From positions 1 to 36,062 of the forward strand of contig CAMFPD010000003.1 of NCBI GenBank assembly GCA_945971355.1: a DNA stretch of 36,062 nt, read 5' to 3'. Origin of the DNA: an uncultured Lachnobacterium sp. (GTDB taxonomy: Bacteria > Bacillota > Clostridia > Lachnospirales > Lachnospiraceae). This document shows, in pieces, positions 22,605 to 25,417 of this stretch; positions within the stretch are counted from its first letter, which is position 1; the number at the start of each line of letters is the position of its first letter. The notes under the pieces are model-generated. The model made no database searches, was not told the DNA's origin, and saw only the letters and a program-made list of their open reading frames with translations. The position numbers and the translations under genes were made by a program.

Positions 22605-24737
22605 ATGTATATTTGGAGAGAACGAATATCAGGAGATGCGACAGCAGATATTGTAAATACAGGGTTATTCCCATTGGATGTGCTGGATGGCTTTAAGATT
22701 CGGCCAGGCTTTTTTAGAATGAATGGTGCATATCAGACAGCAAATGGAGTCAGCTTTACGATAAGCTCTCATAATGCTACCTCATGTACCCTTCTGTTGT
22801 TTAAGCCACAGGAAACAGAGCCCTATGGAAGAATAAAAATACCGGACAGCTACAGGATTGGAGATACTTATTCAATATTGGTGTTTGATATTAAAATAGA
22901 TGAATTTGAATATGCATTCCAGATGGAAGGACCAAATGATCCATCAGCAGGACATTTATTTAATCCTTCCAATATTTTATTAGACCCATATGCAAAGGCT
23001 GTAACAGGTCAAAGAAAATGGGGAGAAAAGCCAGAGTCCGGCAAGGATTTTGTGTACAAAGCAAGGGTGGTAAAAAGCAATTTTGATTGGGGGAAAAACA
23101 AGCAGCTGGAGACACCTTTCGAGGATTTGGTTATATATGAAATGCACGTAAGGGGATTTACAAAGGATGTATCATCTAAGGTTAAGGCGCCAGGAACCTT
23201 TGAGGGCTTGAGGGAGAAAATTCCTTATCTCAAGGACCTTGGAATCAATGCGGTGGAGTTGATGCCAATTTTTGAATTTGATGAGATGGAGAGCGCAAGA
23301 GTTGTAGATGGAGTGCAGTTGTATAACTATTGGGGCTACAATACAGTATGTTTTTTTGCACCAAATACAAGTTATGCATACAAAACGGAGCATAATAGAG
23401 AGGGTGACGAACTCAAAAAATTAATAAGAGAACTTAAGGAAAATGGTATTGAAGTTATACTCGATGTAGTCTTCAACCATACAGCAGAGGGAAACGAGTT
23501 TGGACCGTGCTTTTCGTTCAAGGGAATAGACAATAATGTTTATTACATGCTAACACCTGATGGACATTACTATAATTTCAGTGGATGTGGAAATGTAATG
23601 AACTGTAATCATCCGGTGGTAAGAAGATTTATAACAGACTGTCTGAGACATTGGGCAATAGAATACAGAGTGGACGGATTTAGATTTGATTTGGCATCAA
23701 TTTTGGGAAGAGATCAAAATGGTGTGCCTATGCAGAATCCGCCTATATTAGAAGAGCTTGCATTTGATCCAATCCTTGGAAAGATGAAGCTTATAGCAGA
23801 AGCCTGGGATGCAGGCGGTTTGTATCAGGTGGGCAGCTTCCCGTCATGGAATAAATGGGCAGAGTGGAATGGCAGATATAGGGACGATATGCGTTGTTTC
23901 CTAAAGGGAGATGCAGGAAAAGCAGGAGATGCCATCACACGAATTACAGGCTCACAGGATTTGTATAATCCAAATAGTAGAGGACATCAGGCGTCCGTTA
24001 ATTTCTTAACATGCCATGATGGCTTCACATTATATGATCTATACAGCTATAATACTAAGCATAATGAGAAAAATGGCTGGAACAACACAGATGGAGATAA
24101 TAATGGTCATAGTTGGAACTGTGACTACGAAGGCGAGACAGATGATCCAAACGTTAACGGCCTTAGAATGAGACTGATAAAAAATGCATTTGCGGCATTA
24201 CTGTGCAGCCGTGGTCCTGCGATGTTCTTTGCAGGGGATGAGTTTTGTAACACGCAATTTGGAAACAATAATGCATACTGTCAGGACAATATAATTTCGT
24301 GGCTTGATTGGACCAGATTGGACAAATACAAGGAAATACATGACTTTGTAAGGTATATGATTGCATTCCGAAAAAAGCATGCTATCATCAGAAAGAGAAT
24401 GAAGCCTGTGAGTTGTCAGCTCCCAGAAATAAGCATTCACAATGGAACACCTTTTAATTCATATACAGAATATAATACACATATGATTGGTGTTATGTTC
24501 GCTGGCCGCGATGAGAAGGATTCCAAGGATGATATTATTTTTTACTGTGTTAATACGTACTGGGAGCCACTTATTATGCAGCTTCCGGTTCTTCCTAACG
24601 GCATGAAATGGGTTGTGGACGTGAACACCTACTGTGAATATGAGGATGGTAAAGACTTTGGGGCATACACCGAAATGCTTGGAGTCAACACACTAAGGGT
24701 TCCGGCGCGAACCACCATCATTTTAGTGGCAGAGTAA
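22605..24737 (+). CDS. glgX: Glycogen debranching enzyme / isoamylase-type GH13
   Basis: 710 aa. CBM48-like N-terminus; YEMHVRGFTKDVSS; VILDVVFNHTAEGNE; RVDGFRFDLASILGRD; LIAEAWDAGGLYQVG; NFLTCHDGFTLYDL; RGPAMFFAGDEFCNTQFGNNNAYCQDN. Confidence 0.92.
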   Translation: MYIWRERISGDATADIVNTGLFPLDVLDGFKIRPGFFRMNGAYQTANGVSFTISSHNATSCTLLLFKPQETEPYGRIKIPDSYRIGDTYSILVFDIKIDEFEYAFQMEGPNDPSAGHLFNPSNILLDPYAKAVTGQRKWGEKPESGKDFVYKARVVKSNFDWGKNKQLETPFEDLVIYEMHVRGFTKDVSSKVKAPGTFEGLREKIPYLKDLGINAVELMPIFEFDEMESARVVDGVQLYNYWGYNTVCFFAPNTSYAYKTEHNREGDELKKLIRELKENGIEVILDVVFNHTAEGNEFGPCFSFKGIDNNVYYMLTPDGHYYNFSGCGNVMNCNHPVVRRFITDCLRHWAIEYRVDGFRFDLASILGRDQNGVPMQNPPILEELAFDPILGKMKLIAEAWDAGGLYQVGSFPSWNKWAEWNGRYRDDMRCFLKGDAGKAGDAITRITGSQDLYNPNSRGHQASVNFLTCHDGFTLYDLYSYNTKHNEKNGWNNTDGDNNGHSWNCDYEGETDDPNVNGLRMRLIKNAFAALLCSRGPAMFFAGDEFCNTQFGNNNAYCQDNIISWLDWTRLDKYKEIHDFVRYMIAFRKKHAIIRKRMKPVSCQLPEISIHNGTPFNSYTEYNTHMIGVMFAGRDEKDSKDDIIFYCVNTYWEPLIMQLPVLPNGMKWVVDVNTYCEYEDGKDFGAYTEMLGVNTLRVPARTTIILVAE

Positions 24738-24752
24738 TTCTGCCGCTTTTTT
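24725..24752 (+). terminator. Rho-independent terminator whose stem contains the glgX stop codon
   Basis: AGTGGCAG-AGTAATT-CTGCCGCT followed by TTTTT; the TAA at 24735-24737 lies in the loop. Confidence 0.8.
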
Positions 24753-24822
24753 GTGTTGAAAATAGCCCCATCCCAATGCATCTGCACATTCACCCTTTGC
24801 CAGACCGTAGAGTAAATCTCTT

Positions 24823-25191
24823 AGATTTGTCAGATATTTACATTTTGCCTTCAGGGAAGGTGTACTTCAATGGCAAGACAACGCCGCCCGATTGTTCTCC
24901 CCACACGAACAACCAGCTGACCATTCTAGCCGGTCTAAGAGCCCTACTCAGGAAGTAGATATTAGGGGCGCTTCCGAACAACTCGAGCGCTTTTTTCGGA
25001 TAAAAAAGAGTAAAAAGCGCTCTCAAACAAAGTTCTCCCTGCGCCCCACTTTTCCTTCGTACGGGCTCTAAGGCCGGCACGAATGGCCCCTGAATCGTTG
25101 TCCGTGTGGGGAGAACAATTTGGGGCGCACTGTCAAACGTTTGAAGAACAACCTTCTATCGAAGAAGGCAAAAAGTGACATCGGCAAATCT
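24823..25191. repeat. Long imperfect inverted repeat (fold-back element), two ~170-nt arms around a ~15-nt loop
   Basis: Collinear nested pairs: AGATTTG 24823-24829/CAAATCT 25185-25191; TTTTGCCTTC 24843-24852/GAAGGCAAAA 25164-25173; ATTGTTCTCCCCACAC 24891-24906/GTGTGGGGAGAACAAT 25104-25119 (16 bp perfect); AGAGCCC 24938-24944/GGGCTCT 25063-25069; GGGGCGC 24965-24971/GCGCCCC 25041-25047; GAGCGCTTTTT 24985-24995/AAAAAGCGCTC 25012-25022. Confidence 0.85.
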
Positions 25192-25417
25192 TGGCTTTGC
25201 GGCTAGGTTTCTGAGAAGATGCATATATAGTTTTGTATGTATATAATACGTAAATAGGGTGCCATATCATATCAGATAAAAGCACAACAGAACTGCCCAT
25301 GCAGCGAGTAAGAAATGCTCCCATCCGCGTACCATAAAATTGCAGGAGGCAACGCATTACGGATATAAGAACAAAGTTTGAATAAGTGATATATAGCGTT
25401 AATGAGGACAGGAACAT

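Follow-up and report, generated by a model that had tools for sequence, protein, structure and literature searches.

An apparently undescribed family of giant fold-back sequences with a conserved split tip motif, probably mobile DNA, in rumen Lachnospiraceae

The window (the whole stretch of 36,062 nucleotides analysed here) contains, between glgX and queH, one copy of a giant fold-back sequence that is repeated and dispersed within its own genome and in other bacteria, is conserved at its tip, and has arms that change in concert. The best reading of the whole, to which we assign a probability of roughly 0.6, is a non-coding, non-autonomous family of mobile DNA, each member of which forms a single giant fold-back, with arms re-templated by template switching and with mobilisation in trans. 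That the copies are dispersed mobile fold-back DNA is very probable, and that templating from arm to arm is the main cause of their covariation is rather likely; that the tip mediates their mobilisation in hairpin form is put forward tentatively. The family is sizeable and apparently undescribed: the open-access literature yielded no matching description of such hairpins, an earlier description elsewhere being possible.

The gap that harbours the window copy is 680 bp long, from the stop of glgX (24737) to the start of queH (25418), and no convincing gene is found inside it. All features of the copy are given on the forward strand. A first-pass annotation of this DNA had described a fold-back with a terminator-like hairpin of glgX just upstream, and that hairpin is indeed present as a neighbour outside the element (24725-24747); the element was rightly said to be more GC-rich than its surroundings (0.485 against 0.385-0.47 in neighbouring 200-bp windows). 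The left arm (24823-24954) and the right arm (25052-25191) are recovered as a reverse-orientation self-match with 72% identity and in the arm alignment. Their pairing starts at the base with AGATTTG (24823-24829) against CAAATCT (25185-25191), as annotated, and includes the perfect 16-bp block (ATTGTTCTCCCCACAC, 24891-24906, with GTGTGGGGAGAACAAT, 25104-25119), whose column pairs covary between copies. Below the tip, the strands GGGGCGC (24965-24971) and GCGCCCC (25041-25047) form a helix that is essentially invariant (helix 8 of the covariation analysis). It is followed by the two halves of the tip motif, AACTC (24980-24984) and TCAAACA (25023-25029; consensus TCRRACA), between which the apical helix with its loop is situated (24985-25022). 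This apical helix (helix 10), in which the annotated pairing of GAGCGCTTTTT (24985-24995) with AAAAAGCGCTC (25012-25022) is confirmed, covaries among copies and exists in GCGC, CAGT and CCAT versions. Folding of 24800-25210 gives -191.3 kcal/mol on the forward strand, compared to -114.2 +/- 5.6 for dinucleotide shuffles (z = -13.9), and -195.0 compared to -120.7 kcal/mol on the reverse strand (z = -13.4), with no shuffle folding as well on either strand.

Concerning the extent of the element, the fold-back at 24823-25191 stands, but the true element is larger, as similarity to other copies runs from about 24804, where the left ends of the matches agree, to about 25387, the farthest reach of the right ends. 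The core fold-back common to other copies (arms and tip, around 420 bases) occupies 24804-25219. The adjoining 25220-25387 is outer right-arm sequence (query positions 469-648 match other copies; aligned with loci L020, L021 and L023) that stands unpaired, its left partner being missing in the window copy. Outside the core, pairing of the window copy is no better than in shuffles; most other copies keep pairing outward.

With the 678-bp gap sequence as query, about 50 matching places were found in the window genome (2.27 Mb in 273 contigs, 80% complete). Ten full-length copies are present, the window copy included, the nine others being 74-89% identical to it, and many partial copies are broken at contig ends. 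Because of these nine further fold-backs and the many fragments that stop at contig ends, the genome probably holds at least about 20 copies. In every full copy, the two arms and the tip recur together as a single unit and the bulges are conserved, such that the annotated option of a pair of inverted repeat copies is not supported. Far from being single-copy and non-conserved, the element is also found in other genomes. A covariance model built from the tip region detected it in two of 62 congeners; G013, a congener, has 13 copies, and in 60 further congeners the model detected none. Applied to 397 genomes of the same family, the model matched in six further genomes; the sister species G163, G520 and G521 of another genus contain 50-64 matches each, and none of the six remaining members of the genus shows a comparable set. 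Around seven copies are found in the isolate KH1P17, and the isolate [Eubacterium] cellulosolvens LD2006 has seven exact matches to the 3' motif (control matches: none). Both isolates are among the named rumen Lachnospiraceae matched by a degenerate tip pattern, which also matched two contigs of one Betaproteobacteria MAG. At one locus of this MAG (L264:2780-3361), two inverted copies appear to make one still larger palindrome. With a broader model, two more copies came to light outside the family but within its order (G1037), and one further copy in a Lachnospiraceae genome that consists of a single contig (G1153).

The exact pattern of the window subfamily occurs in none of 85,462 named genomes. 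Plasmid and phage collections contained no match to the window copy or the betaproteobacterial copy, the plasmid collection none to a G163 copy, and viral contigs none to any of three patterns. Pattern matches in Hylemonella and Hydrogenophaga, being without the flanks of the family, are probably due to chance, and a phylum-level match (G878) does not resemble a family member. An artefact of metagenome assembly or binning might be suspected from the 80% completeness and 273 contigs of the window genome and from the many copies at contig ends; its probability is close to negligible, as these structures are also found in genomes of isolates and, among separately assembled species, at orthologous positions. 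The element could itself explain why carrier genomes assemble into many fragments.

The sole sequence common to all subfamilies is the split tip motif: its halves AACTC and TCRRACA lie opposite one another where the apical helix begins, and the sequence of the helix itself is free. The 5' half does not vary among 19 sequences, which come from several genera of Lachnospiraceae and from the Betaproteobacteria MAG. Copies from the same genome can be recognised by their stems and bulges as well as by their tip, whereas between genera the tip alone remains. Subfamilies have further internal-loop motifs in common; CTAG opposite CACGAA, for instance, is found in the window copy, in G013 and in the G448 group; in the KH1P17 group, CGCCGCCTA is situated opposite GCTATGCTCGCGC. 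A distinct hairpin subfamily with ATATATTCTGCGCAAACTAC arms lies in G521 (L254:1340-1560) next to a copy of the common type that has no tip, and the orthologous locus L202 retains a half-element scar only.

The consensus structure derived from ten copies comprises 142 pairs, with 94.9% of cells paired and two-sided changes in 49 of the pairs; such values are not attained in any of 500 shuffles, and shifting the partners by one column lets the pairing fall to about 45%. Strong base-pair covariation usually counts as proof of a functional RNA. The copies would in that case be transcribed, the hairpin with its conserved tip would be a regulatory or mobile RNA, and the covariation would reflect selected RNA pairing, for which the conservation of the loop motif across genera also speaks. 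An RNA helix, however, tolerates G-U but not A-C, and mismatches should consequently favour G·T on the transcribed strand. Mismatches between the arms number 57 G·T and 57 A·C in the window genome, 90 and 93 in G013, and 21 and 30 elsewhere; likewise, single changes between orthologous copies produced 22 G·T and 35 A·C (p 0.11). As G·T does not exceed A·C in any group or in the orthologue intermediates, the covariation is devoid of the signature of an RNA helix. Furthermore, Rfam at gathering as well as permissive thresholds gave nothing on the element (ROOL, GOLLD and HEARO included), no promoter excess was found at the copies, and the genes next to them include no recurrent neighbour. The shared neighbours pyrB-pyrI and pheA gave the impression of conserved positions; as the copies differ in orientation or in the side on which they lie, or the cases are isolated, they were set aside as coincidence. 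The uncharacterised structured RNA that the first-pass annotation had offered as one option is thus weakened and quite unlikely, though kept alive by the conservation of the tip motif. ROOL, GOLLD, OLE and HEARO are likewise large structured non-coding sequences, some of them from rumen bacteria, whereas the present element has no Rfam match, consists of one long hairpin rather than many helices and shows no wobble signature.

Concerted change of the arms is most evident among orthologous copies. In a clean set of 23 comparisons (2814 base pairs, 2.2% divergence), drawn from three species and, since species are shared, not fully independent, 12 double changes from one Watson-Crick pair to another were counted, compared to 0.47 expected if the arms mutated independently, i.e. 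about 25-fold above independence. A larger and noisier set gave 31 double changes against 2 expected. Single changes (90) outnumber the doubles (12) in the clean set, and correction between the arms is therefore slow or partial. In one copy (L066), a patch of the right arm carries left-arm sequence. The arms thus change together as if copied from each other, and matching letters alone do not show an RNA gene. At the same time, all copies retain their bulges and internal loops, which arm correction should erase, such that some structural selection is also needed.

These observations are best accommodated by mobile fold-back DNA with mutually templated arms, for which two steps may be envisaged. 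The replicating strand would fold into the hairpin and the polymerase would switch template between the arms, whereby a mutation in one arm would be copied into the opposite one and the palindrome would persist without selection at the RNA level. A putative trans-acting enzyme would recognise the tip and the internal loops, present as DNA in single-stranded or cruciform form, and spread the hairpin. Template switching that homogenises the arms of inverted repeats is an established mutational process (PMC8794818), with further support in the abstracts of PMC8604942 and PMC3820800. The known quasipalindrome events described in these sources, the latter two at abstract level, resemble the present case in the concerted multi-base changes that restore arm pairing, whereas here the process would act on a whole dispersed family with arms of 100-400 bp. 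If true, this would be a clear natural case of strong covariation whose better explanation is copying between the arms of a hairpin at the DNA level, and equal numbers of G·T and A·C mismatches would offer a simple check against mistaking such covariation for RNA. The family would, moreover, be a sizeable group of mobile elements with a testable recognition motif and a putative helper enzyme.

In the window genome and in G013, copies hardly resemble one another in their outer arms beyond the core, yet the two outer arms of a copy pair over 50-190 bp. In G013, all 13 copies surpass every one of 100 shuffles in outer pairing and contain perfect runs of 8-37 bp; perfect runs in the window genome reach 44 bp. 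At one locus (L005), the paired arms reach about 25 and 39 nt into the 3' ends of clpX and a galactanase-like gene convergent with it, and at another (L077) they take in 13 nt at the end of an ABC-F-like gene (these three gene names derive from reading of the sequence, not from profile searches). Such overlap fits a templating from arm to arm that reaches into flanking DNA. Since the C-terminal tails of ClpX vary naturally within the genus, copying at this locus could have run in either direction. A correlation between arm length and distance to the nearest gene was set aside, as gene distance contains arm length and the relation is partly built in. Because the outer arms are copy-specific yet paired and enter gene ends at the clpX locus, they might be extended outward by copying of flanking host DNA into the opposite arm. 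The elements could accordingly represent a distinct class of mobile DNA, giant hairpins recognised via a split tip motif, with mutually rewritten arms and a range from rumen Lachnospiraceae to Betaproteobacteria, a proposal that we regard as speculative.

The annotated idea of a mobile repeat like a MITE or BIME is supported in kind, the element being multi-copy, dispersed, intergenic, non-coding and sporadic in occurrence, with one empty site in sister genomes; the annotated interpretation as a whole is thus partly supported, and the likeness to known MITE or REP/BIME families is one of kind. A conventional MITE, i.e. a DDE insertion sequence reduced by deletion and moved via terminal inverted repeats, here with unusually long arms, would account for small, non-coding, intergenic, sporadically distributed copies with inverted arms, for the framing of the KH1P17 units by TGACGGAAGC/GCTTCCGTCA and for the TTCGGATTTGTGTTCCC common to one arm type of the G163 group. 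Outer-arm types are shared within the G163 group and KH1P17, whereas they are copy-specific in the two genomes examined in detail (window genome and G013). As, in addition, the tip and not the ends is conserved, no clean target duplication was found, and no transposase gene lies near the copies (the search covered the copy neighbourhoods, insertion sequences non-exhaustively), this explanation is unlikely. Bacterial MITEs and stem-loop repeats such as ERIC, RUP, BOX, Bcr1 and YPAL are also short, non-coding, intergenic, multi-copy, foldable and without a transposase of their own. Models of known stem-loop repeats, however, mostly span 31-200 bp (PMC2267715), compared to about 220 to more than 800 bp in the folded element, which differs further in being conserved at the tip rather than the ends and in having arms that vary between copies yet stay complementary.

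Movement of a REP/BIME/REPIN-type palindrome by a RAYT (Y1) transposase would agree with a palindromic, dispersed, intergenic element and with the Y1 transposases of some carriers (e.g., 11 matches in KH1P17), and REP, BIME and REPIN sequences are likewise thought to move as folded single strands. Yet the units are far larger than REPs of 20-40 bp, the carriers G163 (100% complete), G186 (98%), G310 (100%), G521, G231 and G518 gave no Y1_Tnp (PF01797) match, and several non-carriers do have the domain. A RAYT is thus ruled out as obligatory helper, and this explanation is very improbable.

At the L123 locus of KH1P17, a 537-bp insert consisting of the hairpin and a second hairpin unit is replaced by 15-22 bp in three sister genomes, the flanks being about 80% identical; as two units (A and B) are involved, insertion of the hairpin alone is not isolated by this site. 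A second hairpin unit of about 200 bp (TTGCTTTCCATAAGCATCCCG...GGAAACAACGC) follows downstream in four of seven KH1P17/G456 copies (L120, L122, L123 and L125), some of these units being framed by TGACGGAAG/CTTCCGTCA. The window locus offers no empty site for comparison, since the nearest congeners share only about 74% identity at glgX and have this gene and queH apart from one another. In G163, G520 and G521, several sites that look empty are deletion scars that keep stubs of the arms, not pre-insertion sites. Palindromes are known to be unstable, with which such scars are consistent. Small flank overlaps occur at some sites, several of which prove on inspection to be deletion scars, and the copies examined revealed no clean target duplication, conserved end sequence or helper enzyme. 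The orientation of copies relative to GC skew is weak and inconsistent.

In one orthologous pair (L249:17690-17820 against L234:9900-10200), one of the two orthologues keeps both outer arms while its whole tip region is gone, with the junction at ATATATAT, consistent with deletion of a hairpin between short repeats (or with assembly collapse). Several intergenic length differences of 100-200 bp between the sister species G163, G520 and G521, at loci that include L206, L219, L203 and L245, concern AT-rich or simple-repeat sequence without the element. In G163 (L210:14120-14390), tandem GC-rich short hairpins (CCCGGTATGCCCCGGGACTAATTATTTCC units), unrelated to the element, vary between sister species.
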